DNA of 46,393 nucleotides from a virus, in IMG/VR virus record IMGVR_UViG_3300043411_003039, positions 1 to 46,393 of that record. One strand, given 5' to 3'. A model generated the notes under the pieces. The model had not been told where the DNA came from and did not search any database. It was given only the letters and a program-made list of their open reading frames with translations. The position numbers and the translations under genes were made by a program. Below, piece by piece: positions 4,369 through 41,744 of this stretch; the stretch's first letter is position 1; each line of letters begins with the position of its first letter.

Positions 4369-7083
4369 ATGAGACAATCGAGATTTATCAACATTGATAA
4401 AAACGTTTTATTAGAGTATATATATGATGATGACAATTTAATTAGTGAGGCTTATAATATACTTTATAATACCAAAACTAATATACCATCATTCACATCT
4501 TACTATGATAGTGAAATGAATAATGACTTATCAAGTAATGCCTATAATATAGATCCTATAAATGATAGGTGGGGTCCAATTATTTTGGATTCTAGCGTTC
4601 CTGATAAAATTGATGATAGTTTGGGATCTCTCCAAGTCAGGAATTTCCCATCGTCAGTACCAATTAGATATGATAGTATTAAGGTTCATATACCCATAGA
4701 TTGGACTTTTGGTGATTATAAGGGATTTTATATTCGAGTATATACATATGATTTTAATAATGATAAGGAAGTTGAATTTTCCAATTACTATTTTGATATA
4801 AGTAGTGTGGATCAAAGCTATCAAATGGGATTTTCTTCTCCTATTTTAATGATAAATGAAAACCAATGGGGTAAATTTCTAAGAATTGATTTTCCGTCCC
4901 CGACAAAGGTATCTGATCAAAGGGTTAATAATGTCACTAAGGATAACACTATTAATTATAATTTCAATTCAGGACTGGGAGTTTCTAAAAATGCCCCGGT
5001 CTTCATAGATTTTCATTTTATTGAGAAAATTGACACCATAAATGATAAAAAGTTTTTTATTTTAACTCCTAGAGTCACAACAAGCGTTCCTCAAACTCCA
5101 GACTTTGAAAATATTGGTATTGTTATAGAACCATCCTCACAAGGGGATTATTTTATAATATATGGTATGTACAATAATAGTCTAGCTGAATTGAATATTT
5201 TTCTCAATGAATCATACTATCTTGGTAATAGATACTATATTGAGTATACTATTGATTTATTTGAAAAAAATATAAAAACCAAATCTCAAACATATGTGAT
5301 AACTGAAAACTTCAATCAACCTATTGAATATAGACCTATAATTAAATTTTCTACTACGACAGCTGTAATTGATGTCACAATGAAACTGATAGATAATACT
5401 AGTGGGTCAGTTATATCAAGAAGATCGTCCTGGGGAATAAATGTTGAGAATATTTCAAAGTATTCTAGAAATTTATCAAAATTAAATCTTAGAAAAGCTA
5501 CAAAAACTGAAGTTTTTAATATAAAAGATATTCTTCAACCAACTACAAGTAATGATCCATTTGGAACGAAACCAATATTAATACTGGAAAAATTACCATT
5601 CAATTTGTATTCTAATGACTATTATGCCTATACGGGACCTGATAATGTTGTTTTTGAGAAAAAAAATTGGATTGGATTGAATAAGATTGTTATTTCACTT
5701 TATCCATTTGATAATATCTTGAAATTCTCAATATTAGAAAAGGGTGGATTTTTGGGATATCAAATTTATGATTTAAATAAAGTCACTAATATTAAGTTGG
5801 TTATTAAATCAGATGATAAAATTTTAGAATTTGATGTTTATAAGGATTCGGATGAAAATGAATTTGAGCTAGGAAAAGTGGTATTTAAAATACCTAAAAC
5901 TAAGTATAATGATCTTAGGAAAATAAACTCGATAGGATATAATATTTTTTATATTACAGGACTAAATGAAAATGAAGATCGAGATATAATTTATAGTGGT
6001 TTATTCATACCATATGATTCAGATGTAAATGTTAGAAAGCTAGAATCAGATTTTGCTATATCCCAATTACCAGCTCAGCCAAACCCATTGACTGAGAAAA
6101 CATTTGATGAAAGAAAGATTGAATCAATTTCTCAAACATCTAAAGATAAACTTAAACCTAGAGGAATTGGAAATAAAATACCACTTTTAGTTGACTCTAA
6201 GAATAGACAGAAATTTATTGATAAGGTTATACCATCGACAGTTTTCCGAAAGTATGAAGATAGTCCTATTAATATACCTAACGATTGGCCTAGTCAATAT
6301 AATGATCCTCAAATAAGTATCACAAGCGGTAAGATTTGGGTATTGAAGAAAAAGGCAATGGCTATTTTGAAGGGTGAACCAATTTATAGTGGGTCTAGAA
6401 ATATAACTGAATATGATCTTGCTCCAGGAGAGCCGGTTAGAAATGGGTCTTTGCTAAAGTTGGATCCTATCACAGGACAGCCTATAAGGAAAGATACTAT
6501 CATGATGATTCCCGATGAAAATGGAAGACATCGTATTGTTGACTCAGCTGTTCTTTATGATCATTATGTTGGTAAAAATGGAGAAATAATAAATGATAAA
6601 CCTAATAGAGATAATATATCCAATTATAAAGTTGCTTCTGGTGATGATGAACCATCTGCGGTAAGTGACTTTAAGGAAAGATATCCTAATTTAAATAATG
6701 TTAACTATTGGAAAAAATCTGAATGGCCAAATTTTGCAGTTAATATTTATGATAGGTATGAGGTTAAGAGTGTTGGTGTTTATTATTATCCTCAAAGAGA
6801 TCCGTCCATGGCTTGTCGAGGACTTCCTCTAGAAATACCATTTTCTGACCTTCTTCCGGTAGAGCTAAGGACTCCCTGGTTTCCATATATCAGACCAGTT
6901 GATAGATGTGCTAGGTTTGTGGAGTTATTTCCACATATTGTTCCTAAGAAGGATTGGGTACTTAGAGAAAATAGTTCTAATAGTTTTAATAAAATTAAGG
7001 CTGGAAATCCTACCAATCTTTCCCCACCTGACCAAGTAGATGATAGGGATAGAGTCTATTATATAGAAGAAATTAATATATAA
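4369..7083 (+). CDS. Large virion structural protein, paralogue of the next gene
   Basis: This 904-residue protein is probably a tail or baseplate component. Its first 550 or so residues match the next gene product block by block: NVLLEYIYDDDNLISEAYNI against DVLIEWTYDPNNVIQESYKI, FGDYKGFYIRVYTYD against FGEHQGVYFKIYTLD, and EYRPIIKFSTTTAVIDVTMK against EWRPIIKYSSTKAIIDVEMK. The last 300 residues are unique to this copy and include a Tyr/Pro/Trp-rich segment. It is beta-rich with no signal peptide or membrane segment. The gap to the next gene is only 3 nt. I do not recognise a named T4 homologue; the structural role rests on size, composition, late box and the tail-tube-like gene downstream. 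Confidence 0.6.
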   Translation: MRQSRFINIDKNVLLEYIYDDDNLISEAYNILYNTKTNIPSFTSYYDSEMNNDLSSNAYNIDPINDRWGPIILDSSVPDKIDDSLGSLQVRNFPSSVPIRYDSIKVHIPIDWTFGDYKGFYIRVYTYDFNNDKEVEFSNYYFDISSVDQSYQMGFSSPILMINENQWGKFLRIDFPSPTKVSDQRVNNVTKDNTINYNFNSGLGVSKNAPVFIDFHFIEKIDTINDKKFFILTPRVTTSVPQTPDFENIGIVIEPSSQGDYFIIYGMYNNSLAELNIFLNESYYLGNRYYIEYTIDLFEKNIKTKSQTYVITENFNQPIEYRPIIKFSTTTAVIDVTMKLIDNTSGSVISRRSSWGINVENISKYSRNLSKLNLRKATKTEVFNIKDILQPTTSNDPFGTKPILILEKLPFNLYSNDYYAYTGPDNVVFEKKNWIGLNKIVISLYPFDNILKFSILEKGGFLGYQIYDLNKVTNIKLVIKSDDKILEFDVYKDSDENEFELGKVVFKIPKTKYNDLRKINSIGYNIFYITGLNENEDRDIIYSGLFIPYDSDVNVRKLESDFAISQLPAQPNPLTEKTFDERKIESISQTSKDKLKPRGIGNKIPLLVDSKNRQKFIDKVIPSTVFRKYEDSPINIPNDWPSQYNDPQISITSGKIWVLKKKAMAILKGEPIYSGSRNITEYDLAPGEPVRNGSLLKLDPITGQPIRKDTIMMIPDENGRHRIVDSAVLYDHYVGKNGEIINDKPNRDNISNYKVASGDDEPSAVSDFKERYPNLNNVNYWKKSEWPNFAVNIYDRYEVKSVGVYYYPQRDPSMACRGLPLEIPFSDLLPVELRTPWFPYIRPVDRCARFVELFPHIVPKKDWVLRENSSNSFNKIKAGNPTNLSPPDQVDDRDRVYYIEEINI

Positions 7084-10310: not shown

Positions 10311-11078
10311 TTATATCCAAATAAACTTATCAGTTTTTATATCGATGGGATAAAAATCATTAGTGTCTTTTTTATTACAATTCAGCCATTTATTCGGTGA
10401 TATAGTTATATTTTCATCATCTCCAAGCCATCTAGCCCACCAAGAAAATGTTGATGCTGATATGATAGAATATTTGGCATAATAAAGGATTTTAAAATCA
10501 ATTATTACACTATTTGATATGATATCTATTTCGGGAAAATATGATTTTGAAAATTCTATATCATCAGTTATAATGACAAATGATAAATTTTTATCCTGAT
10601 TGACTAGACTCATGGACTGTGTATAAAATTCTTTAGGTACTAGCCAATCTTGTCCATTTATTTTATTATCACCACCCCTTATGTGGATATAGCAATATTC
10701 ATCAATTGGATATTTTTCTAAAATATTTTTAGTCTCATTGTCCATTTCAATTTTAAACCAAGATTTTATATCATCTTCGTATCCAATAAAATATTTTTCT
10801 GTTTGAAAAAATCCCAAGAGATTTGTAAAATCTTTTACATTGAAAATTGATTGGTCAAATATCTGAGACTGACTATCGTTATAGTGATGTTTAATTGTTC
10901 CATCACATATTCCTAAGTCAATTTCTGGAAAACATTTTTTAAGATTTCCGACATAGGGTATATGAAAATTAAAATTATTTTTGGATGCGACAATTCTACA
11001 TATAGAATATTGAAACATATGGTTTCCTAAAGCTATATTGGTTTCTTCATATACTTTATTAAATCCTACCGTTATCAT
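10311..11078 (-). CDS. GT11-family fucosyltransferase-like glycosyltransferase
   Basis: This 255-residue protein carries the landmarks of the GT11 alpha-1,2-fucosyltransferase family: an N-terminal ALGNHMFQYSI (usual form GLGNQMFQYA), a YIHIRGGD motif (usual HxRRxD, the GDP-fucose binding site) and the C-terminal SASTFSWWARWLG. The HIRGGD version replaces the second Arg of the motif, so donor use may differ. A second, more typical GT11 enzyme lies at 16227 in the same operon. It overlaps the downstream end of the aminotransferase gene by 20 nt. Confidence 0.85.
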   Translation of the reverse strand: MITVGFNKVYEETNIALGNHMFQYSICRIVASKNNFNFHIPYVGNLKKCFPEIDLGICDGTIKHHYNDSQSQIFDQSIFNVKDFTNLLGFFQTEKYFIGYEDDIKSWFKIEMDNETKNILEKYPIDEYCYIHIRGGDNKINGQDWLVPKEFYTQSMSLVNQDKNLSFVIITDDIEFSKSYFPEIDIISNSVIIDFKILYYAKYSIISASTFSWWARWLGDDENITISPNKWLNCNKKDTNDFYPIDIKTDKFIWI

Positions 11079-11796
11079 TGAAGTTTAACATTTTGGTTAA
11101 GCTTGGATACATCGTATGGTTTTGAGAATCTTCATTTACTTCAGGTCTATTATCCATTAGAATTATTCCTCTAGCTGCGTCTTCTGGTGTCATATACATA
11201 TGATATCCCATCATCCGAATGTGGTTCTCATCATCGTATGGGGTTGTTAAATCCCTACCATCATACGATGCTAATTTTATCCATTTATAAGCTTCTTCGT
11301 CATTTGTTAAAACCATACCACCTCGACCTATTGGTATTATTTTTTTGATCTGAAACGATAATATTTGTAAAATATTTCCGCCAATAAACATATCCTTTGT
11401 GAATCGACCGGCCCCGTCCCAGATTCTAGTCCCACCTATTTGATATGCTCCACTCCACTCCTTATCTTCCAATTTAAGAGTGTGATTACAATGTTTTATT
11501 TGCATAGGAACAGACACGTATGTTCTATCTGGAATTGATAGTACATCATATTCAAATATTTCACCGATGGATTGTAAATACTTAATTGATAGAAATAAAC
11601 CATTGGAGCAACAATCAATTGCCGCTGCATATTTACATCCGGCTAGTTGAGCAACTTTGTTTTCAAACATGTCAAGAACGTCTCTAGGATCCGACCAATT
11701 GTATCCCATAGATTTTATTGTATCTAGTTCTGGTCTTTGTAGTTCTTTAGGTAGTTTTCCTAATGGCCAAGCGTTGTATTTATATTTCGATTCCAT
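11059..11796 (-). CDS. DegT/DnrJ/EryC1/StrS sugar aminotransferase, short form
   Basis: PLP-dependent aminotransferase acting on nucleotide-linked keto-sugars. The fold-type I landmarks are present: an N-terminal substrate region, CSNGLFLSIKYL, the IWDGAGRF stretch at the place of the PLP-contacting Asp, and SFQIKKIIPIGRGGMVLTN carrying the likely Schiff-base lysine. At 245 residues it is well short of the usual 370-400, and the C-terminal small domain that normally follows is missing. It may be a compact phage form or may have lost activity. The upstream acetyltransferase overlaps it by 17 nt, and this pairing is typical of N-acetylated amino-sugar pathways. Confidence 0.8.
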   Translation of the reverse strand: MESKYKYNAWPLGKLPKELQRPELDTIKSMGYNWSDPRDVLDMFENKVAQLAGCKYAAAIDCCSNGLFLSIKYLQSIGEIFEYDVLSIPDRTYVSVPMQIKHCNHTLKLEDKEWSGAYQIGGTRIWDGAGRFTKDMFIGGNILQILSFQIKKIIPIGRGGMVLTNDEEAYKWIKLASYDGRDLTTPYDDENHIRMMGYHMYMTPEDAARGIILMDNRPEVNEDSQNHTMYPSLTKMLNFNDNGRI

Positions 11797-12310
11797 ATCC
11801 TAATTTTTTTGCATATTCCAGGATTTTTTCTGGATTGATTTTTTTAACTAATTTTGCTGGATTTCCTTTATACACTCCCCATTCTTCTGTGTCACCCATT
11901 AGTAGACTTCCAGCTGTGAGTAGAACCCCTCGTCTTAATATGGACCCTGGTAAAACTATGGAATTGGTTCCGATATTGGAAAATTCTTCCATTATTATTG
12001 GATTTGTAATTTGCTTACCTTTTAGTTCTTTGGGGATCATTGATCCAAATAATCCACTTCCATCAAATCTATCAGATGAACATATTATTCTTGCTCCTGA
12101 CATTATATTATTAAATCCTTTGGACTCGAAATATCCATCTGATCCTCCAATGCATGTGACATATGGTGATATGTGAACATAATTTCCTATTTTTAGTTTT
12201 GTGGTGCAATAGAAACCTTTATCTATGGATACATGATCGCCAATTTTAACTTGATCGGGTATTTTAAAAAATACATCACTATTAATTATGACGTCTATTC
12301 CTACGTTCAT
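11780..12310 (-). CDS. Left-handed beta-helix sugar O/N-acetyltransferase
   Basis: This 176-residue protein has hexapeptide-repeat sequence throughout ([LIV]GxxxxI units such as KIGDHVSIDKG, KIGNYVHISPY, NIGTNSIVLPG and RRGVLLTAG) and the usual C-terminal cap (WGVYKGNPAKLVKKI). These enzymes act as trimers and transfer an acetyl group from acetyl-CoA to a sugar amine or hydroxyl. Placed between an epimerase and an aminotransferase, it probably N-acetylates the amino group installed by the latter. It overlaps both neighbours by a few nucleotides, so translation is coupled. Confidence 0.85.
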   Translation of the reverse strand: MNVGIDVIINSDVFFKIPDQVKIGDHVSIDKGFYCTTKLKIGNYVHISPYVTCIGGSDGYFESKGFNNIMSGARIICSSDRFDGSGLFGSMIPKELKGKQITNPIIMEEFSNIGTNSIVLPGSILRRGVLLTAGSLLMGDTEEWGVYKGNPAKLVKKINPEKILEYAKKLGYGIEI

Positions 12311-13236
12311 TGGTTTTTTATACTTGTCTTATTTTTGAATTCATCTGTTTTTAGATATCTAGATAGCTCATCTATGCCATCTTCTAAAGTAAATTTTATT
12401 TTGTAATCTATTAGAGATTTTAATTTTGAGAAATCAACTTTATAATCTCTAGGATCATCCCAGTTTACGTATTCGATATTGAATAAAAACTTTTTTGATA
12501 AAATATCAACTATTTGTTTTTTGGTGTAGTTTAATGATTCATCTCCTATATTACATACTCCTGACATATTGATGTTGATAGCCGATAGTATTAAATTTGA
12601 AGCATCTTCAACATGTAGATATGGTCTCCAAGCTGATTCTCCATATACACTAACTGATCCATTCGTTAATATTTCATATACAAACTGGTTTATGGTTAGA
12701 TCTACTCTCATTCTGTGTGATACACCAAATAGAGTTGAGCATCTTAATACCAATGCTGATTTATTTTTTTCTAAGATATATTCTTCAGCTTTGATTTTGG
12801 AGTCCGAGTAGAGTCCTAGTGGATTTAATTCAGAATCTTCGTTAACTATTAGATCTGTCTTTCCATAATTGGAACATGTGCTTAGGAAAACAAGCTTCTT
12901 GTTATTTTCGTTACAGATGTCTGAAATAAATTTGGCCGGATCTGTATTTATTTTGTAGATTTGATCTTTGTGTTCTTTACAGACTGGTTCACCAACTAAA
13001 GCAGCTAGGTGAATGACTATATCGTTGTCAAAGATATAAGGCTTGAGATCATCGTAGTTGGTTACATCTCCTTTAATAAATTTATAATTTTTATTACTCT
13101 CAAGTGGTACAACACCATCTTGACCAAAGTATAAATTATCATATACAGTTACGAAATTATTATCAGATAGTAGAATCTCACTTAGTTTGGATCCAAAAAA
13201 TCCTGCTCCACCTGTTATTAATATTTTTTTATTCAT
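12307..13236 (-). CDS. NAD-dependent sugar epimerase/dehydratase (extended SDR)
   Basis: This 309-residue nucleotide-sugar epimerase or dehydratase has the Rossmann GGAGFFG motif at residues 9-15, the HLAALVGEP stretch, the catalytic Ser region (LSTCSNYG) and YSDSK as the YxxxK active-site pair. LRCSTLFG and WRPYLHVEDAS match the usual substrate-domain blocks. It could make a 4-keto or epimerised sugar for the downstream acetyltransferase and aminotransferase. It overlaps the dehydrogenase gene by 8 nt. The exact substrate cannot be told. Confidence 0.88.
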   Translation of the reverse strand: MNKKILITGGAGFFGSKLSEILLSDNNFVTVYDNLYFGQDGVVPLESNKNYKFIKGDVTNYDDLKPYIFDNDIVIHLAALVGEPVCKEHKDQIYKINTDPAKFISDICNENNKKLVFLSTCSNYGKTDLIVNEDSELNPLGLYSDSKIKAEEYILEKNKSALVLRCSTLFGVSHRMRVDLTINQFVYEILTNGSVSVYGESAWRPYLHVEDASNLILSAININMSGVCNIGDESLNYTKKQIVDILSKKFLFNIEYVNWDDPRDYKVDFSKLKSLIDYKIKFTLEDGIDELSRYLKTDEFKNKTSIKNQ

Positions 13237-14479
13237 GTTTTGAGTTACCTACTTTTATTAATCTAACACCATCTTGTTCTTTTATATACCTCCATGGATC
13301 TATAACTATGGATCCTATTGGGAATTTATATTCTAAAAAGATGTCATGGTTTGTTGCTATAAAAAATATAGATCTAGTTGAAATTGGAGCATCTCCACTA
13401 TCAATCCATGGATCATAAATTTTTACACTGGGTATGCTTTCTTCTAAAATATTTTTTAGAAGAATAGCAGTGCTTCCAACCACTAAGTTTGTTTCTTTTT
13501 TGAATGTTTTTCCTAAAATAACGATTTCTAATTCCGAATTTCTTTGCTCTTCAAGTATCAGTTTTGATAACCATTCTGTTTGATTTTCTCGACACTGCAT
13601 TAGGTTTTGATACCAATCAAAACTCAAATCAACATTTTTGGCTAGCCACGATAAAGCTATATTATCGCGTGGATGACAACCACCACCATCTCCCATTCCA
13701 CCTGTGAGGTATTTTGTGCTAATTAATCTTTCATTTGCTAAGAATAAACCCCCCATGACATTATCGCAATTGATATTATCTAATTTGTGGGATATTTCCA
13801 TAACGGTATTTGCTAAGCAAATTTTCATTGTTATGAATGTATTGTATGTGACTTTTATAAGTTCTGCCTCCTCAATAGTACATTTATAAATTTGTTTATT
13901 GTGGATAGTTTTATAGAAATCTTTGGCTACTTCATAAGCTGAATTATCATCAACTCCAAATAAAACAAATTCAGGTGACATAAAGTCTTTTATTGTTGTT
14001 CCCATTGCTATAAAAAATGGATTATAACATAGTTTAACATGATTATTTAGAATTGGCTTTATTTCCCTTCTTATTGTTCCTGGGAGAACTGTTGAGATTA
14101 TTATAACAATCTTGTCCTTCCCTTGTCTATTTATTTCTTCTGATAGATTTGTCATACCCGATATTAACCAATCGTAATTAAAATCGACTCTTTCTTCTGG
14201 TATTCGAGTTATCCCTTCATATTTTTCGGAATGTGGAGTTTGTATGGGGACAAATATTATATCTGATTTTTCAACAACTTCAGATATTGACGACCAATTT
14301 ATTTTATTATTGTTTAATAGATCCTGAGCTCCTTCTTCTCTATATGGTAATTTTTTTGACTTTAGTATATTTTCAATTTCGGGATTAATATCATATCCAT
14401 ATATGGTATGTCCTTGGTTTTCGGCTGCTAAAGCGCAGGGAAGTCCCAATTTTCCTAGTCCAATAAATCCGATATTCAT
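13229..14479 (-). CDS. UDP-glucose/GDP-mannose dehydrogenase family enzyme
   Basis: This 416-residue enzyme oxidises a nucleotide sugar to a uronic acid with two NAD+. It has the N-terminal Rossmann motif (GFIGLGKLGLP), the middle-domain Lys and Asn region (KVTYNTFITMKI), the catalytic cysteine in GGGCHPRDN and a C-terminal domain with LGKTFKKETN and KIYDPW. The length is normal for the family. Its NAD+ demand and its carboxylate product are both relevant to the transferase-NAD synthetase fusion immediately upstream in the operon (4-nt overlap). The UDP-GlcA, UDP-ManNAcA and GDP-ManA types cannot be told apart here. Confidence 0.9.
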   Translation of the reverse strand: MNIGFIGLGKLGLPCALAAENQGHTIYGYDINPEIENILKSKKLPYREEGAQDLLNNNKINWSSISEVVEKSDIIFVPIQTPHSEKYEGITRIPEERVDFNYDWLISGMTNLSEEINRQGKDKIVIIISTVLPGTIRREIKPILNNHVKLCYNPFFIAMGTTIKDFMSPEFVLFGVDDNSAYEVAKDFYKTIHNKQIYKCTIEEAELIKVTYNTFITMKICLANTVMEISHKLDNINCDNVMGGLFLANERLISTKYLTGGMGDGGGCHPRDNIALSWLAKNVDLSFDWYQNLMQCRENQTEWLSKLILEEQRNSELEIVILGKTFKKETNLVVGSTAILLKNILEESIPSVKIYDPWIDSGDAPISTRSIFFIATNHDIFLEYKFPIGSIVIDPWRYIKEQDGVRLIKVGNSKHE

Positions 14480-16230
14480 ATTTTGTTATTAATTTTTAAA
14501 ACGGGTATACTTACCATTTTGTGTTTGTTATTTTCGTGGAATTTTTTATATATATTTAATACTTCGAACTTTCTAGGGTCTAAATCCAGATCTTCTGTGG
14601 TCATTTTTTCCGCATCTTCCTCTGAGGAGGTAAAATCCATAGCCCATTCTAATTCTTCATAAGTTGCTCCGATTTGATCTTCATCATTTCTATCATCTTC
14701 CCAAAGTCCATCTGTTGGTTTCGCAGATAATATTTCTTCATTGATACCAAGATGTTTGGCCATTGATTTAACTTCGGATTTTTTTAGGTCTGCTATTGGT
14801 GATATATCAACACCACCATCACCATACTTTGTAAAAAATCCAATACCAAAATCTTCCACCTTATTTCCCGTTCCTACGACTATTCCTGATACATTTGCTG
14901 ATATTTGATATAGAGTCATCATTCTCATCCTAGATTTTGAATTAGCGTAGGATAGTTTGCTATTCAAGGAAATATTTCCTATTTTAATTTTGTCAAAAAC
15001 TGACTCGAATGTTTTAAAATTCTCACTCATATCAATTTCAACATCGAATATATTGTTGTATTTGCTCTTTAACCAATGAATGTGGTTTTTAGCCCTAGAT
15101 AATTGGTCTTTGTTTTGATTTATGGGAATTGAAACAACATATGTGTTAATTCCTGTCATTGCACATAGAGTTGATACTAGAGCTGAATCTATTCCACCTG
15201 AAATCCCCACAACTAGATTTTGTTTAAACTTCTTAGCGTAATTTTTTATCCATTTGATTATGTCCAAGTATTTATATTTGTCTAAAATATCCTTATACAT
15301 TTTTTCGGAGTCTAACTTTTTCATATCAAATGACAATGCCAATTCACATAGTTTTTCATTTTCGTTTAGAAGATCTTCAGTTACATCTTCAAATTTATCT
15401 ACAAATAGTACAGGTAGTCCTTTAAATATTTCTTCTTGATATTTGGTTCTTTTAACAATTGGTACTCTTCTCATGTATAGTGTTTCCCAGTTTCGATAAC
15501 AATCACAATCAATAGCATTTCCATCAGGACATATGACAAATTTATGATTTTTTATTCCTGATAAATATTTACGATAGTCTTCATCGCTTTCAAATTTATA
15601 CCCATCTATACTGACCCAATCTTTTCCGGAAAAGAATTCATTTATTTTTACCCTATCAGGATTCGATTTTATATTATGGTTTATGTATACTTTTTGGGTC
15701 GGTGTGGATTTATCATTTGACATTCCTCGTAGAATATTTAATCTACTTTCAGATCCATACATTAATCCGAATGGCATTGGAACTACCTTACCACCAAAAA
15801 ATCTAGAATTGGAAGCATATATAGATAAAATATTATTTGGTATTAAATCAAAAATTTCATTATCAATTGGGATGTCTTCATATCCTGTGAATATTATAAA
15901 ATTCATGTCGTATAGATGAGAGCATAGTTTTAGTAGATCTTGGTCGGCGTTATCAACGAGCATTTTATTTCTCATCGACCTATTGTTCATCCATCCCTCT
16001 ACTCCTGGATTTTCCATGTGGGTATGTATAACAGTTCCAGATGGTCTGTTATATAATCTTATATTATCAATAAATAGAGTCATATATGATTTACCAGAGT
16101 CTCTGATTAGTAGATACTTTTCTATAAATTCTGAATTTTTTAAATTAGCTGGTTTTGTATTTGAAAGTGTAATTGCTCCAAATGAATAATCACAGTTATT
16201 CATAAAATACCTAGATTCTAATAAATTCAT
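14476..16230 (-). CDS. Fusion of exostosin-like glycosyltransferase and NH3-dependent NAD+ synthetase
   Basis: This 584-residue protein joins two enzymes. Residues 1 to about 306 resemble exostosin/GT10-like transferases, with a C-terminal block of KFVICPDGNAIDCDCYRNWE and a following MRRVPIVKR. Residues about 324-584 are NadE-like: the PP-loop SGGIDSALVS, NSKSRMRMMTLYQ (compare NTKARMRM in E. coli NadE), VGTGNKVEDFG, FFTKYGDGGVDISPI, and KPTDGLW followed by DEDQIGATYEEL. All key NadE blocks appear intact. The ATG at 16230 overlaps the upstream stop by 4 nt; the longer form would need TTG. No glutaminase domain is present, so ammonia would be the nitrogen donor. The NadE part could also have been adapted to amidate a uronic acid. 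Confidence 0.88.
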   Translation of the reverse strand: MNLLESRYFMNNCDYSFGAITLSNTKPANLKNSEFIEKYLLIRDSGKSYMTLFIDNIRLYNRPSGTVIHTHMENPGVEGWMNNRSMRNKMLVDNADQDLLKLCSHLYDMNFIIFTGYEDIPIDNEIFDLIPNNILSIYASNSRFFGGKVVPMPFGLMYGSESRLNILRGMSNDKSTPTQKVYINHNIKSNPDRVKINEFFSGKDWVSIDGYKFESDEDYRKYLSGIKNHKFVICPDGNAIDCDCYRNWETLYMRRVPIVKRTKYQEEIFKGLPVLFVDKFEDVTEDLLNENEKLCELALSFDMKKLDSEKMYKDILDKYKYLDIIKWIKNYAKKFKQNLVVGISGGIDSALVSTLCAMTGINTYVVSIPINQNKDQLSRAKNHIHWLKSKYNNIFDVEIDMSENFKTFESVFDKIKIGNISLNSKLSYANSKSRMRMMTLYQISANVSGIVVGTGNKVEDFGIGFFTKYGDGGVDISPIADLKKSEVKSMAKHLGINEEILSAKPTDGLWEDDRNDEDQIGATYEELEWAMDFTSSEEDAEKMTTEDLDLDPRKFEVLNIYKKFHENNKHKMVSIPVLKINNKI

Positions 16231-16997
16231 ATTATTTGCCAATTTTTTGGTATTATATCGGATGTGTTCAGATTAGCATGATCACCAAACCATTTGGATG
16301 GAGATACTACAATTTTGTTTGGATTGTTGTTTATCCATGCTGCCCACCAACTAAATGAGGAATTAGCTATTATATTATTTTTACACATTGACATTAGCCA
16401 TAGATTTTCTATATCAGATAGATTATTTATAAAAATTGTGTTGTCGTATTTTAAATTTGATTTACACCATTCGATATCATCAGAAAATACCAAGATCCTA
16501 TCATAATTTTTTATCAACTCTAATCCTTGATTATAGTAATCAATACTTTGAACTGGGTGATACCCATTTGATGATACATAGTCTGTTCTTCTGATATGAA
16601 TGGATACAGAATTGTCTGTTAAAATGGAATTTAATTTGTTTGAAGTCTCAACATCTGGTTTTAATATTTCTCGTATTTGAGATGAATATTTGTGAAAGTA
16701 TTTTTCAGATTGCCAATACCCATCAAGATAGTAGTTATTATTTTGTACCACATTTATATCAGAAAATTTGAAAGAATCGGTTATTCTTATAAATCTTTCG
16801 CCAGAATTTTTATATTGATTCCAATTTAGGCTTGGAAATTTATCTAATTCGAACTTTCTTGGAGTTACCCCAGATTGGTTATTATAGAATCCTAGATCTA
16901 GAAATAGTTCTGTTTGGAATTTATTTGATAGGCTATGTCCGTGAGACCATTGAAATAATTGATTGCCTAAACCACCTTGTAATTTGACAACGATCAT
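16227..16997 (-). CDS. GT11-family alpha-1,2-fucosyltransferase-like enzyme
   Basis: This 256-residue protein is a clear GT11 glycosyltransferase: VKLQGGLGNQLFQWSHG at the N-terminus, SIHIRRTDYVSSNGYH carrying the HxRRxD donor-binding motif, LVFSDDIEWCK and the C-terminal NSSFSWWAAWIN. Family members mostly transfer fucose from GDP-fucose to galactose, but no GDP-fucose synthesis genes are visible, so the donor would come from the host or lie outside the window. The length is near the family norm, and it shares 4-nt overlaps with both neighbours. Confidence 0.93.
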   Translation of the reverse strand: MIVVKLQGGLGNQLFQWSHGHSLSNKFQTELFLDLGFYNNQSGVTPRKFELDKFPSLNWNQYKNSGERFIRITDSFKFSDINVVQNNNYYLDGYWQSEKYFHKYSSQIREILKPDVETSNKLNSILTDNSVSIHIRRTDYVSSNGYHPVQSIDYYNQGLELIKNYDRILVFSDDIEWCKSNLKYDNTIFINNLSDIENLWLMSMCKNNIIANSSFSWWAAWINNNPNKIVVSPSKWFGDHANLNTSDIIPKNWQII

Positions 16998-19552
16998 ATT
17001 TTAAATTTGGGATCCTCTAAATCCTTAATTGAAATGAATTTAACTCCACGGTCAATTAGGTTTTGATTGTTCTTTTTTATCTCCTCATAGAAGTTCCAAG
17101 CCAATACAATAATAACATCTGGTAGATTGTTATAACAATGTTCTTTTGATACTATTGGTATATTTACACCGGGTATGAATTTACCTACCTTTAGAGTGTT
17201 ATCTTCTACAGTATAATCAATAAATTTATTGTCTATTCCGAAAAAGTTTAGAGCTGTCGTTGCCTTGGCTGGTGATCCATATGATGATATCTTATAAATT
17301 TCTTTCAATTTGGATATGTTTGATAGTACAACGGATTTTAGTTCATTTACCATTTTTGAAAACCCTAAATATGTAGAATAGTCGTTTATTCCAAATTTTT
17401 CTTCCTTTTCGAGGAATTTAAAAACACTATCGTCAATTAGAGTGTTTTTAGATGCGTATACCCTGATGGATCCTCCATGGGTGTTAACATGTTCGACTCT
17501 ATTAATCGATATTCCTAGATTTTTGAAAAAGTTATTTAGAGAAGTGACTGACCAATAATTTGTGTGTTCATGATATATGTTGTCAAAAGTTAGATCTTTT
17601 ATTGTGTTCATTAAATATTGAACTTCAATTACAAAGTATCCATCATCTTTAAGAATTTTAAAAGCATTTAGGCATATTTCTTTTAGTTTATCAGAATGTG
17701 CAAAGACATTAAATGCTGTAACAACATCAACTTTCCTTAGATTGGATATCATATTAGCACATTCCTCATCAAAATATGAATTTATTGTATCAATACCATT
17801 ATCGTTAGCTAATTTACAAATGTTTTTTGCTGGTTCGATTCCTAGAACTTTAACACCTTTGCTTTTCATAGGTTTTAGAAATACACCATCATTACTTCCA
17901 ATATCTACAACAAATGAATTGGGGTTTAAGGATAAAGTATCAAATATTGAATTTGATAGATTTTCGAAATGCTTTCTAAATGACTCAGTTGTAGATGATA
18001 CATATAAGTAATCATCAAACATTTCTTTTGGATTTACAACGTAATTCAATTGGACATTTTTACAATTATCACAGTAGTCTATTTCCAAAGGATATTTTTT
18101 ACATCCATCATTGGGATTTAGAAGTAGATTATTTGCTAATGGAACTCTTCCTAGTGAAAGTACTTTTTTCATGTGAATATTGTTACATGATCTACATTCT
18201 TGTTTAAATCCAGACATTAGGTCTAATCTAAATTCCTCATTCACCAATTCATAGGGAATGGTGTGTGTTATTCCATAATTGTCATGTTCTCTTTCTCCAC
18301 GAACCAAATTTAGAAACACAGAATCTTCTAGAAACACCATTGTATGTGCTACATTGGGTTTTATCACTGCCATGTCTCCAGCTTTTATAAGTCTAGTTTC
18401 AATTACGGAATTTTCTGTGGATAGGTCTTTTATAACACTAACATATCTACCCTTGACTAGGAGACATTTTTGTTCTTGTATTGGATGATAGTGATTTGCT
18501 CTAACACTTCCAGTTTTTGACTCAATGTATCCAATAAGATTTATTGGTTCTGTTAGTTCATAATTAGATATTTTTCCACGATCATCAATATATTCTTTTT
18601 CCCCTCTATATGTGTATTCTAGGTCCTCTTTGACTTCTTGAGTGGACCATTTAGTGATCATCTCTCGAAGGGAATCTTCTATGTTATAGAGAAATTTAAA
18701 TCCTGTAGATATTAGTTTTTTATTGGATATTGTGTATCCAAGATTTGGAATTTCATCCTTAGTTTCGATTATTTTAACATTAGGATTTATTTTTTTACAC
18801 AATACAGCTACATCCTTGACCGTCATCGTTTCTTTTGAAACATGAAAAATATCTTTGGATATTGAATTCTCAGACATGAATTTAATACATCTAGCAACAT
18901 CGATTAGTGGAACTAAGCTTTTTAGTTGAACCCCACCTGAAAATAATTTTATTACTCCATTTTGAGAAGCTATTTTTGAGAATAAATTTGGCATAATATT
19001 AATTCTCATTGTATCAGTAGAATATCCATATACAGATGCTAATCGAAGTATGATGTAATTTTTGTCAGAATTTATTAGATCTTTTTCAGATTGAAATTTA
19101 CCACGAGCATATGTTAACATCGGACACGGTGTTACGGACTCATCGATATTGATCATTGTTTTGTCAAATCCCTCATATACAACATGTGTGGATGGGAATA
19201 TGATTTTTGCATCAGGTTTAGAGTACTTTATGACATTTCTAGTTCCTTCTACTCCAACATTTGTGATTTCTAAATCCTTTGCAGAATTTGATTCAGTTTT
19301 TGTATATGCGACATCGGTTATTCCAGCTAAGTGGACAATGACATCAGCGTCGGATAGTTCCTTAGATATTATGTCTTCATCAAATAGAGAAGCTTGGATA
19401 AAATTTATTCCCCAACATCTCAATTGATTGACCCTTTCGGAAACAAATTTTGAATCAATGACTGTTATATTTTTATATCTAGATTCTCCTGAGTAAATTT
19501 TGCACAATTCTGTGCCTATGTATCCTAGGCCACCCGTTATTACTATTTTCAT
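16994..19552 (-). CDS. Three-domain fusion: sugar epimerase, cupin isomerase-like and C-methyltransferase
   Basis: This 852-residue protein combines three sugar-modifying enzymes. Residues 1 to about 310 are an extended SDR (GGLGYIG; PSTHVVYEG; YARGK as YxxxK). Residues about 315-450 are a cupin domain (NHYHPIQEQK, then PNVAHTMVF). Residues about 453-852 are a NovU/TylCIII-type C-methyltransferase: a zinc-binding CRSC and CDNC region, a SAM site (VVDIGSNDGVFLK), YHEHTNYWS and the C-terminal SYGSPAKATT block. Together they could epimerise, isomerise and C-methylate a nucleotide-linked keto-sugar. I chose the ATG at 19552, right at the Rossmann strand; the longer reading starts with TTG. The gap of 29 nt to the upstream gene is one of the largest inside this operon. 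Confidence 0.9.
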   Translation of the reverse strand: MKIVITGGLGYIGTELCKIYSGESRYKNITVIDSKFVSERVNQLRCWGINFIQASLFDEDIISKELSDADVIVHLAGITDVAYTKTESNSAKDLEITNVGVEGTRNVIKYSKPDAKIIFPSTHVVYEGFDKTMINIDESVTPCPMLTYARGKFQSEKDLINSDKNYIILRLASVYGYSTDTMRINIMPNLFSKIASQNGVIKLFSGGVQLKSLVPLIDVARCIKFMSENSISKDIFHVSKETMTVKDVAVLCKKINPNVKIIETKDEIPNLGYTISNKKLISTGFKFLYNIEDSLREMITKWSTQEVKEDLEYTYRGEKEYIDDRGKISNYELTEPINLIGYIESKTGSVRANHYHPIQEQKCLLVKGRYVSVIKDLSTENSVIETRLIKAGDMAVIKPNVAHTMVFLEDSVFLNLVRGEREHDNYGITHTIPYELVNEEFRLDLMSGFKQECRSCNNIHMKKVLSLGRVPLANNLLLNPNDGCKKYPLEIDYCDNCKNVQLNYVVNPKEMFDDYLYVSSTTESFRKHFENLSNSIFDTLSLNPNSFVVDIGSNDGVFLKPMKSKGVKVLGIEPAKNICKLANDNGIDTINSYFDEECANMISNLRKVDVVTAFNVFAHSDKLKEICLNAFKILKDDGYFVIEVQYLMNTIKDLTFDNIYHEHTNYWSVTSLNNFFKNLGISINRVEHVNTHGGSIRVYASKNTLIDDSVFKFLEKEEKFGINDYSTYLGFSKMVNELKSVVLSNISKLKEIYKISSYGSPAKATTALNFFGIDNKFIDYTVEDNTLKVGKFIPGVNIPIVSKEHCYNNLPDVIIVLAWNFYEEIKKNNQNLIDRGVKFISIKDLEDPKFKI

Positions 19553-19581
19553 AAGATTTATATTTTTGATATTTATATTGT

Positions 19582-20169
19582 TTATACTCTTGTCCACCAA
19601 ACATATCCCCTTTCTACATTTAATTCTAAGTTAAATTCTTTTATAAATTCATCTACTGCTTTTTTGACTCCGAGGAAATTTGGATGATCATAATCATGTC
19701 CTGATAAAATTCCACCTTTTTTTATTTTGTGTATCCAATTTCTTGTATCCTGATATACTGCATCATATGAGTGTTCAGCATCTATAAATACCATGTCTAA
19801 TTTGTGATCTATTATACTTAAAGAATTTGTACTATTTTCTCGAATGAATTTTATTCTATTTTCAAATTTTTGTAGTCTATTTTTAGCAAATTGAAATAGA
19901 CTTTCATAATCTGATTGATTAAAGGGAATTCCATTTAATTTTTTGAAACTATCGGTAGTTGTATTAGACAATAAATAAGAATCTATTGCATATGCTAATT
20001 CAATTTTTGTGTTGTTTAGTATTTCTTCTAGATGTCCACCAAAAGCTACACCAATTTCGGCAAAATACCTAAATTGATTTTCATTTATGATTTTACTTAC
20101 TATTCCATAATAAGTATTTCCCCATCCTATATCTGCTGAATTAGCATGGTCTTGTATATTATAGTCCAT
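19582..20169 (-). CDS. SAM-dependent methyltransferase, Methyltransf_24 type
   Basis: This 195-residue class I methyltransferase-like protein has EIGVAFGGHLEEIL as SAM motif I, a Rossmann order of strands, and the family hallmark DMVFIDAEHSYDAVYQD followed by GGILSGHDYDHP. This group often has O-methyltransferase or hydroxylase-like members in glycan clusters. It overlaps the upstream GT47-like gene by 11 nt. The acceptor is unknown; a sugar hydroxyl is the likely target by context. A similar domain is fused to a glycosyltransferase-like domain at 34451. Confidence 0.8.
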   Translation of the reverse strand: MDYNIQDHANSADIGWGNTYYGIVSKIINENQFRYFAEIGVAFGGHLEEILNNTKIELAYAIDSYLLSNTTTDSFKKLNGIPFNQSDYESLFQFAKNRLQKFENRIKFIRENSTNSLSIIDHKLDMVFIDAEHSYDAVYQDTRNWIHKIKKGGILSGHDYDHPNFLGVKKAVDEFIKEFNLELNVERGYVWWTRV

Positions 20170-34450: not shown

Positions 34451-35758
34451 CTAAAAAATGGTTCTTATTTTCTCATAAATATCTTTGTCTCTGGTCCAAA
34501 TCCCTAGTCCACATGACCCACTTTTAATTAGCTTGTATCCATCCAACTCTGTGAAGAATCTACTAACTCCATCAAATATTTCAACATCGTGGAATAAAAC
34601 AACTCCAGATGTAGTTATAAACTTTGACCAATTTTGGAAATCTTGTTTAACAGATTCGTATGAGTGAAATCCATCGATATGTAGTATGTCTATTTCTTTT
34701 GTCCAAATTGTAGATATGTCAGTAAAATCACCTTTGATTATATTAGTACTGATTCCATATTTGTCTTTTAGATTTTTATATAACTCTAACACATGTTCTT
34801 TTGTGTCTCTTAGACCAGCGTGTGGATCCCCTTGGAACCAATCTATTCCATATACTTCTCCAATTTTTGAATACGCAAAGGTAAACATGGAAAATCCCCA
34901 ATCAACTCCTAATTCAACTGTTACCTTTGGTTTGAGGAGTTTTACCATATCAATAGCAAAATCATAGTGACCGACCCAAGCTGATTCTTTTTCAGAAATA
35001 TCTATTTTATACTCTTCTTTTACTTTATCACTAGTTAGATATTTCCAATTTTCTAATTTATGGTCTGGTATCATGTTTGGGAACAAATCCCTCCAATAGT
35101 AAGTGTATCTTAGATCACATCCACTATTTGTTATATTATCGATATTGTGTGATCTATCTATCCTTACTTTACTACCTGGGTATGATTCGGTTGAAAATCT
35201 AGTGGGGACCATATGATCCCATCCATCAATTTCAAATAATTTTGAGCTAAACCAGAAAAAAGTACCACTAAAATGCCAATCTGAATAGACCCACGGTGGT
35301 GATGGATAGTCGACTCTGAAAGTACCAGCAAATATTTTATCTTTTGAAAGGTGGTCTTCGACATCCTTTAAGCTTTCTTCACATAGATTAAAATAATACA
35401 TACTTGATATCCACTTATCAACATTTGGATTTTGGTAAGTTGATCCCTTACTATGGTGATAAAATGTAATACTTTCAGGGTCCATATTAGATCTTAGATC
35501 TTTAAGCTGATCGATAAAATATTCAGATTCTCGATTTTCAGAATTGTTTTTGACAAATCTAGCAATTGGGTGTCCTAGTTCTTTGGATATTTTTATTTTT
35601 GAATTTTCGTCAAGACTATCATTAGTCGAAATGTATATTATTTTATGTCCGTCGAATATTTCATAGTATAATTTTATGAATTTTAAATTTAGTCCCAATG
35701 ATTTTTCTAAGTCGTTAGGATCTTCTAGATATAGATATGATATTAAATTTTTAACCAC
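34451..35758 (-). CDS. Fusion of glycosyltransferase-like domain and Methyltransf_24 domain
   Basis: This 435-residue protein has two parts. Residues 1 to about 230 resemble a glycosyltransferase-like domain found in surface-glycan genes (ITFYHHSKGSTYQNP, KDKIFAGTFRVDYP, HFSGTFFWFSSKLFE). Residues about 245-435 are a class I methyltransferase of the same type as at 19582 (VTVELGVDWGFSMFTFA as motif I, DILHIDGFHSYESVKQDF and SGVVLFHDVEIFDG). The start is GTG inside the stop of the upstream gene, so translation is coupled. It is the last gene of the chaperone operon. Substrates are unknown; the coupling suggests a sugar is added and then methylated. Confidence 0.75.
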   Translation of the reverse strand: MVKNLISYLYLEDPNDLEKSLGLNLKFIKLYYEIFDGHKIIYISTNDSLDENSKIKISKELGHPIARFVKNNSENRESEYFIDQLKDLRSNMDPESITFYHHSKGSTYQNPNVDKWISSMYYFNLCEESLKDVEDHLSKDKIFAGTFRVDYPSPPWVYSDWHFSGTFFWFSSKLFEIDGWDHMVPTRFSTESYPGSKVRIDRSHNIDNITNSGCDLRYTYYWRDLFPNMIPDHKLENWKYLTSDKVKEEYKIDISEKESAWVGHYDFAIDMVKLLKPKVTVELGVDWGFSMFTFAYSKIGEVYGIDWFQGDPHAGLRDTKEHVLELYKNLKDKYGISTNIIKGDFTDISTIWTKEIDILHIDGFHSYESVKQDFQNWSKFITTSGVVLFHDVEIFDGVSRFFTELDGYKLIKSGSCGLGIWTRDKDIYEKIRTIF

Positions 35759-36857
35759 AGAAGTTTAAGTTATTTTGTATTCTTGGGACATAGAAGTCTG
35801 GTATTTTTCCTTCGGATAGTATTCTTAGGCATAAATCTTTAGATTCTTGAGTTCGACCACTATAAAAGCAACAGATCGAAAACTCATCTAGGAGTCCATA
35901 CTCATAGATCCATTTTTCAACAAAGAGTCCATCCTTAGGTATATTCAATTTATCTATTATTGATTTGCCGGCCATATATCCTTGGTTGTTCCATCCGTTC
36001 AGTCGACATATTTGCATTATCCAATATATTGGTTCAAGACGATGAGGTGAGTGTTCAAATGATTTATAAAAATCTTGTAGAACTTCTTCTTTTGTGTAGT
36101 CAGATTCATTTTTTATTTTAGCTATATTATATAAGCTAACAAATTCTTCTTCTCTCCAAAATCCTTGAGTTGATCTGATTCTATAGTTTTTTATGGCTGA
36201 TTCTTTTTCATTACAATCTCTATAGCTTTGAGCCAAATAGAAAGTATATCTTGATCTTAAGTAATCACCAACATTTGGATTTAGAATTTCATTTTCGAGA
36301 ATAATTGCATCATTTTTATATTTTTGAGGACCACTTTTATTTCGATCAGAATCTTGTATGGGTTGATTTTTAAATCCTTCAACTTGACCTAAAGATCCTG
36401 ATATATCCATTGCTAAAAATTCATGGACAGCCCCCTCATATCTAAAGTTCTTTTTATTGGATATTAATTGTGGTCGCGGATATATAATGCCACCAAGCAT
36501 TGACAAAACATTATAGATATCTGAACTCAAATTGGACTTGAATTCGGATATATTGAAATCGGGATCAAAAATTAAAATCTCATCCGCATCAATCATTAAA
36601 GAATAATCAATGTGATCAACTTCTCTCATTTTTGAGAGTGCTAGTGATCTATTATGTGAGAAGTTTATCCACTCATTTTCAATTACCTCACCCGGAATGT
36701 TATTTTCGATCAACCACTTTCTTATTACATCTTGAGTTCCATCTGTTGATCCTGTGTCAGATATTAGTACATAATCTATTATTGGCTTAACCGAGTCTAG
36801 ACATCTAGTTATTATATGTGATTCATTTTTGACAATTAAGCATAATCCAATGTTCAT
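35751..36857 (-). CDS. Glycosyltransferase family 2 with helical-repeat C-terminus
   Basis: This 368-residue protein has a GT2 domain ([36 protein letters not shown], the DxD site [12 protein letters not shown] and [10 protein letters not shown]) followed by about 170 residues of helical, TPR-like repeats ([20 protein letters not shown], then [12 protein letters not shown]). This layout is that of SunS-like and other protein-targeting transferases, where the repeats bind the acceptor. It overlaps dnaJ by 4 nt, so glycosylation and chaperone genes are translationally coupled. A protein acceptor is my inference. Confidence 0.85.
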
Positions 36858-37900
36858 TTAAAATTGTCTTGACCTTTAAGATTTAGTAATATTTCTTTTT
36901 GGTCTCTTGTTATATTTTTTGGTATTCTGATTGAAATTCGGATATATAGATCGCCTGTTCTCCAATTGTGGACAGGCACTCCCTTTCCGGATATCTTTAT
37001 TACTTTACCATGTTGTGTTCCGGGTGTAATAGTGAATGAAATTTCACCCTGTGGTGACTTTATTTTAAATTCTCGTCCTAGTATTGATTCAATTACCGAT
37101 ATTTCCTGATCATAGATCAAGTTATTTTCTTCTCTTTTAAAATTAGGATCTGGAATTTCTTCGGCAAATATTTGAAGATCCCCAAAATCACCACCCTTTA
37201 TCCAATTACCATATCCAGGCATTGTCATTTGTGTTCCCTCGACTGCTCCTTTTGGAATTTGGATATCAATAATTTCTTGTTTTGGTGAGGTTGCCATACC
37301 ATGACAAGTTTTACATGGTTCACGGGACACTTTTCCTTCTCCACTACACATTGTGCAAATTACAGTTTGTTTAACTGTACCAAATGGAGTCTGCTGAACT
37401 ATGGATCGATGTCCAGATCCTTGACACGGACCACATGTGGACATATCTTTACCTCCTTTACCATCACAAGATTTGCATTTATCTTGTCTTGTGAATTTTA
37501 TTTTCTTATTTGCACCAGATATAACTTCCTCGAGGGTCAATTCTACTTTTATTCTTAGGTCTGATCCCTTTCTTCTTCTAGATCTATTTCCGAATCCACT
37601 CCCATTACCAAAAATATCTCCGAATTGTGAGAATATATCTTCCATATTGAATCCATGTCCTCTTCCACTAAAAGGATTTCCTCCACCGGTTGATCCAAAC
37701 TGATCATATTGTTGCTTTTTCTGTGGATCTGATAGAACTTCAAAAGCTTCGGCACATTCTTTGAATTTTTCCTCAGCCTCTTTGTTATCGGGATTTTTAT
37801 CGGGATGGTACGTCATAGCCATCTTCCGATAGGATTTTTTTATCTCATCTTGAGAAGCTGATTTATCAACATTTAATATTTTATAATAGTCTTTACTCAT
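36854..37900 (-). CDS. dnaJ: DnaJ (Hsp40) co-chaperone
   Basis: This 348-residue protein has the full type I DnaJ layout. The J-domain (1 to about 70) holds HPD at 32-34, which stimulates the DnaK ATPase. A Gly/Phe-rich linker with [13 protein letters not shown] and [12 protein letters not shown] follows. The zinc-finger domain has four CxxC units: [24 protein letters not shown] and CKTCHGMA, the last departing from CxGxG. The C-terminal substrate domains include [16 protein letters not shown]. It is slightly shorter than the bacterial norm of about 375. Its partners GrpE (same operon) and DnaK (41756) are both in the window. It overlaps both neighbours by 4-8 nt. Confidence 0.96.
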
Positions 37901-38429
37901 TTATTTCTTCAATTTTTAAATCCCTAAGAGTTGATTTTATGTCGGAAATTTCTTGAACTTCCGAAATCTTCATTGCTACAAAATCTTCACATATTATAGA
38001 TAGTATATTAGAATACCTATCGATATTTTCAAAATCATCTAAGATATGTAAATTTTTGGATATTTTATCTTTGAAAAATGGAACAATTTCATTTAGATTA
38101 AATTTATATTGAAATATTTTCAGTCTACCATCACTAAATAAGCTAGGTATATTTATAAAAAACTTAGAATATACTTTTCTTATAAATGGTATTACTAGAG
38201 ATAGTATATTGTCTTTGATATAGAAGACATTCTTGGAACCATATGTCACTTCTTTAGTGAAAAACTCATCATTAAAATATTGATGATAATTGTCAATAAG
38301 GTCTTTGATTACTAATTTAAATTTATTTGAGTTATCCTCATCCATTGATTTTGTTATCAATAGAATATATTCCTCAGTATCGAATTCTTTAAGAGAATTT
38401 CTCAACGGTCGTTGATTGGAAAGTATCAT
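37893..38429 (-). CDS. Hypothetical protein between dnaJ and grpE
   Basis: This 178-residue protein has no family I recognise. It is helical with aromatic-rich strands ([33 protein letters not shown]) and an acidic C-terminal helix. It is embedded in a chaperone operon with 8- and 4-nt overlaps to dnaJ and grpE, which suggests a product working with them, for example a client adaptor or phage-specific cofactor. That is context only. Confidence 0.6.
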
Positions 38430-38860
38430 CTCGATATTATTACTTTTGGATATCTTATTATTTTGTCTCCGATTTTATATCCTTTGGATACAACATCAAT
38501 TATCTTTTCTTCTCCTGTTTCTACTACACTAATGACTTCATGAATATCAGGATTGTATTTTACAGATTCAATTTCTTGAATACCTTGAGAATCTAAGAAA
38601 TTTTTTAATTTATGGATTATTAAATCTATCCCACTGGGCACAGATTTAAATGATTTTAGGGCAATATTCAGATCATTGTCCATATCTAGAATAGCACTGA
38701 TCATTGCAGTTTTAGTCATAATCACTGACTCTTCCTTTTCCCTTTTTATTCTCTTCTTTAGATTATCCATATCAGCATACAGTCTAGTATACATATCTTT
38801 CCAATCTATGGATTCTTCCTTGATTTCTTCCTTATTTTCGAGTACTTCTTTCTTTTCCAT
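38426..38860 (-). CDS. grpE: GrpE nucleotide exchange factor
   Basis: This 144-residue protein is a short GrpE, which releases ADP from DnaK. It has an acidic start, the long dimer helix (WKDMYTRLYADMDNLKKRIK, then REKEESVIM), the conserved LDMDNDLNIAL and GIDLIIHKLKNFLDSQGIQ blocks and the C-terminal beta domain (KYNPDIHEVISV, then IDVVSKGYKIGDKIIRYPKV). Bacterial GrpE is usually 180-200 residues; here the N-terminal tail is shortened. It overlaps the genes on both sides by 1-4 nt. Confidence 0.95.
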   Translation of the reverse strand: MEKKEVLENKEEIKEESIDWKDMYTRLYADMDNLKKRIKREKEESVIMTKTAMISAILDMDNDLNIALKSFKSVPSGIDLIIHKLKNFLDSQGIQEIESVKYNPDIHEVISVVETGEEKIIDVVSKGYKIGDKIIRYPKVIISR

Positions 38861-39345
38861 TAGTAGTTAAATGATAATAGTTTTTTAATAGAATTTGAAT
38901 TTAGGAAATCGTATGTTCCAAATTGATCAGTCACTTGTGTTATTTCTAGTTTTTCAATTCCATTTTTAATTTCTTCCATATAAATTTCCAAATCCTTAAT
39001 TCCTTTTTTGTAAGATGAATCTGATTCCCAATATACGGGAAATTTATCTAAAAATTTATCTATTGCTGAGGATAGTGTTTTTTTCCTTATTAGGATCTGG
39101 TTTTGGTTATTTATTGATTTGTTAGTTAGTAGGTCGACGATAAATGTGTTAAATTTGTGAATTAGATTATCAGTTTCAATAACTTTTAAAATGCCAATTA
39201 TTAGAGCATCTCTTTCTGATATTTCAAATTCTTTGTTTTCTTTTAGAATTTTTTCACCTTCTTTGTCAGATCCAAGGATATAATAGACATAATTATCCCA
39301 AGAACACCTCTTCACTATATCTTCTGGAGTGATCAGTATTTTCAT
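38860..39345 (-). CDS. Hypothetical protein heading the grpE-dnaJ operon
   Basis: This 161-residue helical protein of unknown family is the first gene of the operon that includes grpE and dnaJ. It begins KILITPEDIVKRCSWDNYVY and has a central charged helix (KTLSSAIDKFLDKFPVYW) and a C-terminal helix with LEIYMEEIKNGIEKLE. Its stop overlaps the grpE start by one base (TAATG). It diverges from the gene at 39410. Its place suggests a link with the chaperones, but no motif supports a function. Confidence 0.6.
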   Translation of the reverse strand: MKILITPEDIVKRCSWDNYVYYILGSDKEGEKILKENKEFEISERDALIIGILKVIETDNLIHKFNTFIVDLLTNKSINNQNQILIRKKTLSSAIDKFLDKFPVYWESDSSYKKGIKDLEIYMEEIKNGIEKLEITQVTDQFGTYDFLNSNSIKKLLSFNY

Positions 39346-39395
39346 ATGTTAACTTAAGTTTATTAAATATATGAAAATTCAGAGCCTAAGTTTAA

Positions 39396-39401
39396 TATAT
39401 A
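39396..39401 (+). promoter_or_regulatory. TATATA box before the start at 39410
   Basis: TTTAATATATAAATTTCCA precedes the ATG at 39410. The spacing of 8 nt is wider than at the other sites, so this is a weaker case. It lies inside the longer ORF that could begin at 39371. Confidence 0.35.
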
Positions 39402-39409
39402 AATTTCCA

Positions 39410-40639: not shown

Positions 40640-40643
40640 TTAC

Positions 40644-40651
40644 TATATTTG
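40644..40651 (+). promoter_or_regulatory. Candidate -7 box TATATTTG
   Basis: TATATTTG lies 4 nt before the ATG at 40656. The 15 bases from the box through the ATG are identical to those of the promoter at 4296-4326. There is no TTG 19-21 nt upstream, so this is a partial match to the Bacteroidota promoter. Confidence 0.4.
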
Positions 40652-40655
40652 TATT

Positions 40656-41706: not shown

Positions 41707-41744
41707 AAAAAGGGAACAAAATTATATGCTCCCTTTTTCTATTT
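41701..41744. terminator. Bidirectional terminator between the HNH gene and dnaK
   Basis: AAATAGAAAAAGGGA (41701-41715) pairs perfectly over 15 bp with its complement at 41730-41744 around a 14-nt loop. The A and T arms supply a T tract on either strand. It overlaps the HNH stop codon and lies 12 nt from the dnaK stop, so it serves both converging genes. Confidence 0.85.

Follow-up and report, generated by a model that had tools for sequence, protein, structure and literature searches.

A phage glycosyltransferase-NadE fusion and the recurrent pairing of viral NadE with a nucleotide-sugar dehydrogenase: a possible role in sugar amidation

Domain organization of the fused protein

An open reading frame in a viral sugar operon joins a glycosyltransferase-like domain to a domain of the NAD+ synthetase (NadE) family, which raises the question of whether the NadE-like domain makes NAD+ or acts in the sugar pathway encoded around it. 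We analyzed the 46-kb virus record that carries this gene (the window); its relevant features are collected in Table 1.

The C-terminal domain matched Pfam PF02540 (155 bits against a cutoff of 21; residues 323 to 571) and PHROG 11189, "NAD synthetase" (268 bits; residues 318 to 580). The NadE blocks that the preliminary description had named in this half were all found, namely, SGGIDS, SRMRMM (at about residues 433 to 438), GFFTKYGDGGVD, and DEDQIGATYEEL. The N-terminal half had been called transferase-like, and this assignment was borne out by phmmer. Residues 112 to 317 matched the chlorella virus protein A075L ("AO75L"; PDB 8avq, 8asa, and 8q8i), a GT47 exostosin-type enzyme that itself has no NadE domain, with an E value of 6e-26, and a CPxGN...R.WE.LY..RVPI block is conserved in this half. 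Relatives of the GT47-like domain were found on L002, L093, L110, and L119. No Pfam family, glycosyltransferase or other, matched the N-terminal half above its cutoff, the best being RXYLT1_C with a subcutoff 19.5 bits. The asparagine-synthase domain, the mark of WbpS-type enzymes, gave no Pfam match in the 584-amino-acid protein.

Table 1. Features of the fused gene and its operon in the window
Feature	Position	Strand	Basis or remarks
Fused GT47-like/NadE-like ORF	14476..16230	minus	584 aa; ATG at 16230, stop at 14476-14478, no interruption
GT47-like glycosyltransferase domain, N-terminal (residues ~1-305)	15316..16230	minus	phmmer match to PDB A075L
NadE-like domain, C-terminal (residues 318-584)	14479..15279	minus	PF02540 and phrog_11189
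PP-loop SGGIDS (residues 344-349), ATP pyrophosphate binding	15184..15201	minus	Kept in all relatives compared
GFFTKYGDGGVD (residues 464-475)	14806..14841	minus	K468 and D475 align to deamido-NAD contacts (alignment)
HK (residues 570-571)	14518..14523	minus	Aligned to deamido-NAD contact positions (alignment)
UDP-glucose/GDP-mannose dehydrogenase-like gene (UGDH)	13229..14479	minus	Downstream of the fusion, ATGA overlap
GT11 (fucosyltransferase-like) gene	16227..16997	minus	Directly upstream of the fusion, ATGA overlap
NAD-dependent nucleotide-sugar epimerase/dehydratase	12307..13236	minus	Profile matches
Hexapeptide-repeat acyltransferase-like gene	11780..12310	minus	Profile match
Short DegT/DnrJ aminotransferase-like gene	11059..11796	minus	Profile match
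GT11-like gene	10311..11078	minus	Profile match
Fusion of epimerase, cupin-like middle, and sugar C-methyltransferase	16994..19600	minus	868 aa; 66% identical to an LR756502 protein

Genomic context and fused and unfused forms

The description of the gene as a glycosyltransferase-NadE fusion within a sugar operon held up, as the intact ORF has ATGA overlaps with sugar genes on both sides. Only sugar genes surround the fusion, and the operon contains no gene of the NAD pathway or of NAD salvage. A PADLOC scan for defense and counterdefense systems gave no hit in the operon. Elsewhere in the window, the region from 34451 to 46080 also codes for DnaJ, HSP70, and a T4-type RNA ligase.

With the whole fusion as the query, a scan of viral sequences gave no match. 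The nearest relative of the window in the phage collection was the 642-kb phage LR756502 (L002), which matched 98% of the fusion at 57% identity as two adjacent pieces. The halves are unfused there: the glycosyltransferase gene (12001 to 12987) and the NadE gene (13004 to 13765) lie 16 bases apart and are followed by the same UGDH. On L093, the GT47-like and NadE genes are likewise unfused, with a gap of 1 base. On L119, an independent viral contig, the two domains are fused at the same junction as in the window, and the proteins are 49% identical. The fusion is therefore not an assembly artifact of one contig, and the order GT47-NadE-UGDH is common to the fused (window and L119) and unfused (LR756502) forms, since the same arrangement was seen in each. 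A different glycosyltransferase domain, GT2-like, is fused to the front of NadE on L109, with UGDH next to it, and the NadE of L099, also beside UGDH, has an extra C-terminal domain of no recognized kind.

Pairing of NadE with UGDH in viruses

Three viral scans yielded 115 distinct NadE copies, often on fragmentary contigs, and the absence of UGDH was judged within the flank examined. UGDH abutted NadE in 60 copies, lay within 1.5 kb in 14, and was farther away in 8, with none in the flank in the remaining 33. Thus, 82 of the 115 viral NadEs had UGDH in the locus, compared to none of the 80 nearest cellular NadEs (within about 6 kb), so that no bacterial locus with the pair was found among the latter. 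NadE was directly beside UGDH or one gene off in all 10 of the annotated or published phage loci (S-SCSM2R, HTVC008M, S-SSM7, Bellamy, P-TIM68, Sf-FS3, three single-cell phage contigs, and LR756502).

Where a locus held both genes, UGDH was the immediate neighbor of NadE in 39 of 59 cases, against 9.6 expected under random placement, a model that ignores shared ancestry. This adjacency far exceeds what chance would give, and it occurred in both orders (upstream in 14 pairs and downstream in 25). The adjacency of epimerase (10 observed and 9.0 expected) and of GT11 (5 observed and 7.7 expected) to NadE was at chance level. On the tree, well-supported branches require the UGDH label to have changed at least twice. 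Among the viral records from the first of the three scans, 14 had no UGDH near NadE, and 5 of these carried one elsewhere. The reverse association was weaker, with NadE nearby in 15 of 80 viral UGDH loci and none nearby in 65. No alternative amidotransferase, including the asparagine-synthase (AsnB) type, was found among the commonest 25 of the 34 families represented in the 105 immediate neighbors of NadE-less viral UGDHs that were scanned.

The other immediate neighbors of NadE in UGDH-bearing viral loci were dominated by methyltransferases, epimerases, and glycosyltransferases, and the 25 commonest Pfam families of these neighbors included no NAD-pathway family. One methyltransferase family was present in 13 loci (L125, L134 to L139, and similar loci) and adjoined NadE in 11 of them; it sometimes separates NadE from UGDH, a hint that the sugar may be methylated. 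A cpn60 chaperonin-like gene lies directly before NadE in seven contigs (L117, L118, L122, L133, L140, L144, and L155), and four of these (L118, L122, L133, and L155) carry UGDH elsewhere.

Some phage NadEs have a different company. In Bacillus phage G, NadE is accompanied by an isochorismatase (nicotinamidase-like), a nicotinate phosphoribosyltransferase (PncB), and a nicotinate nucleotide adenylyltransferase (NadD), and in Xanthomonas phage X1, it lies near an NMN adenylyltransferase and a nicotinamide phosphoribosyltransferase. These salvage clusters resemble the window in that NadE is phage encoded, but their NadEs are only about 29 to 32% identical and, unlike that of the window, sit with nicotinamidase, phosphoribosyltransferase, or adenylyltransferase genes. 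True NAD contexts also occur within the clade of the window NadE, on L469 and L478 (with NUDIX and adenylyltransferase-like neighbors) and on L487 (with an isochorismatase neighbor).

Active-site residues of the NadE-like domain

The preliminary description had proposed that loss of the deamido-NAD contacts would speak against NAD synthesis. The contacts tested were those that we take to be R138 or R140, K171, D178, H258, and K259 of Bacillus subtilis NadE, numbered from Met1 (HAMAP/UniProt site list). The PP-loop and every tested contact position were invariant in 50 UGDH-linked viral, 14 other viral, and 80 cellular sequences. Loss of a contact as proof of a new specificity was thereby ruled out, as none was lost in the aligned sequences, and the conserved contacts are compatible with NAD synthesis.

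The nearest cellular relatives, with 50 to 58% identity, came from Bacteroidota and marine archaea. The cellular gene was the only strong full-length NadE in 19 of the 20 genomes tested and is therefore presumably the housekeeping NAD synthetase of its genome. Two positions differed in frequency between viral and cellular copies: Q or H at position 146 was found in 62 of 71 viral and 3 of 80 cellular copies, and G at position 153 was found in 69 of 71 viral and 14 of 80 cellular copies. These differences also occur in viral copies without UGDH, and three viral NadEs of NAD-pathway context have M153. As a clean signature of sugar-linked NadEs, the two positions failed, since the UGDH-linked NadE of L163 has M146, as in its housekeeping relative L015, the NadE of L478 (in an NAD context) has Q146, and G153 occurs in some housekeeping NadEs. 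Because of these exceptions, Q/H146 and G153 may be no more than weak lineage markers. The L163 NadE groups with, and resembles, the housekeeping NadEs of Neomarinimicrobiota, and the alignment gives little or no sign that its specificity has changed. A change of substrate is not established by the sequences themselves.

The single tested cellular genome with extra NadEs, a Myxococcota metagenome-assembled genome (L013), has one at 5923 to 6744 in a nonsugar context and two other NadE loci. The extra copy was the only one of the 80 cellular NadEs with Q146, and no UGDH was found on its contig.

The viral dehydrogenases

The amidation proposal starts from a neighbor that makes a carboxylate, and this premise proved weaker than was stated. 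The catalytic Cys of the GGxCxP[KR]D motif is invariant, and the window UGDH reads GGGCHPRDN. However, Lys is found at the position of Tyr10 and Phe at that of Glu141 (Streptococcus pyogenes numbering; YNPFFIAMG). Tyr10 is reported to be 98% conserved and to catalyze thioester hydrolysis, and both residues have roles in the final oxidation steps (PMC4794789). A structure of human UGDH with the E161Q mutation has the thiohemiacetal intermediate bound (PMC3184952), and by our own reading human E161 equals Glu141. Glu141 is invariant in characterized relatives and its equivalent is kept in 51 of 61 NadE-adjacent viral UGDHs. The Tyr10 position is K or R in nearly all of the viral UGDH-like proteins examined (all those with a readable motif; about 158 distinct). 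The final oxidation or hydrolysis step of the viral dehydrogenases may thus work differently, and the release of a free uronic acid by the window enzyme appears uncertain because both residues are replaced in it. Replacement of Glu141 by F or Y is seen in a large subset of the approximately 158 distinct viral UGDH-like proteins, the one in the window among them.

Proposed role of the NadE-like domain and alternatives

Of the possible roles, we lean toward one in which the NadE-like domain amidates an NDP-uronic acid with ammonia and belongs to the sugar pathway rather than the NAD+ pathway. The dehydrogenase next to it would oxidize a nucleotide sugar at C6, leaving a carboxylate there. If the PP-loop domain works as NadE does, it would adenylate this carboxylate with ATP, releasing PPi, and ammonia would displace AMP to give an NDP-hexuronamide. 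The fusions suggest that the GT47-like domain, or a GT2 domain in other phages, would then transfer the amidated sugar. The basis observed here for a sugar role is the domain content, the translational coupling, the recurrent cassette and fusions, and the contrast with phage NadEs of the NAD pathway. Amidation of a uronic acid had already been suggested for this gene; the recurrent UGDH adjacency, the two kinds of fused glycosyltransferase, and the NAD-pathway contrast argue for it, while the conserved deamido-NAD contacts and the window UGDH without Tyr10 and Glu141 argue against it. Also counting against it are the housekeeping-like L163 copy, the many viral UGDHs that have no NadE nearby, and the failure to find a bacterial cluster with the gene pair among the nearest cellular NadEs.

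A working NAD+ synthetase that merely rides in the sugar cluster, raising NAD+ during infection for the virus's own dehydrogenase and epimerases or against host NADases, is the strongest competitor, although we consider it unlikely. The intact PP-loop and contacts, the presumed housekeeping function of the closest cellular relatives, and the housekeeping-like appearance of the UGDH-linked L163 copy are all in keeping with it. UGDH uses two NAD+ per turnover, which could be taken as a demand for the cofactor, but the enzyme reduces NAD+ without consuming it, so a synthetase is not its missing partner. NAD+ supply consequently predicts neither the specific adjacency to UGDH nor the fusions to glycosyltransferases, and the phage NadEs that make NAD keep company with salvage genes. 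The amidation of a sugar is favored over NAD+ supply because of these three features. The suggestion that the enzyme counters NADase-based defense found no support, given that neither the operon nor the tallied neighbor families include an NAD-pathway gene and PADLOC was negative in the operon.

Another sugar amide chemistry, with an amine other than ammonia or with a carboxylate other than that of the UGDH product (one that a later step introduces or that the glycan itself already bears), would draw on the same contextual evidence as amidation with ammonia. The NadEs of L467 and L413, which have epimerase and methyltransferase genes and no UGDH nearby, and the methyltransferase family that so often adjoins NadE would suit this chemistry. 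It is nevertheless improbable, as the ammonia-type active site is conserved, no amine-making partner recurs, and UGDH is by far the commonest neighbor of NadE. The closely spaced unfused genes of LR756502 and L093 are what would be expected if adjacent genes had simply lost the stop codon between them, leaving an inert fusion with independent halves, but this is very unlikely given its retention on L119 and the different glycosyltransferase fused on L109, and it would bear on the fusion alone and not on the NadE-UGDH pairing.

Parts of the amidation proposal have precedents, as uronamide sugars made with AsnB-type enzymes and a substrate-shifted NadE homologue are already known. WbpS and WbqG, which are uronamide amidotransferases of the asparagine-synthase type (PMC7468200), reach the outcome proposed here, the conversion of a uronic acid to a uronamide in a surface-sugar pathway. 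The NadE of Francisella tularensis acts as an NMN synthetase (PMC3376133). This NadE homologue, adapted to another carboxylate, was the top PDB match, but its substrate is still a nicotinate nucleotide, unlike the proposed sugar. With ammonia-dependent NadEs in general (PF02540; B. subtilis 1EE1 and F. tularensis 3FIU), the window domain shares the fold family, the PP-loop, the ATP and deamido-NAD contact positions, and the ammonia-type single domain. In contrast to them, it is encoded next to UGDH within a sugar operon, forms one protein with a glycosyltransferase, and has no NAD-pathway neighbors.

The chances are about even for the broader proposition that the NadE fold has become, in phages of marine and fresh waters, an NDP-hexuronic acid amide synthetase, paired with a viral NDP-sugar dehydrogenase, whose product is passed by fusion to a glycosyltransferase. 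If so, many phage genes annotated as "NAD synthetase" would be sugar-amidating enzymes. Such annotations are found in cultured cyanophages and a pelagiphage (S-SSM7, Bellamy, P-TIM68, and HTVC008M), where the boosting of NAD+ is the natural reading, but the conserved dehydrogenase-NadE cassette suggests another job, which can be tested with short, clonable genes. Confirmation would extend the NadE family by a further reaction and give uronamide sugars a second route beside that of AsnB-type WbpS, and would advise caution against reading phage nadE as counterdefense by default. Neither the phage NadE-UGDH pair nor an action of NadE on uronic acids was found to be discussed in the open-access literature searched.

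One gene annotated as "NAD synthetase", P-TIM68 gp170 (L007, 2614 to 3045), was rejected as such: it is a SegE-type GIY-YIG endonuclease, matching PF19835 with 185 bits.
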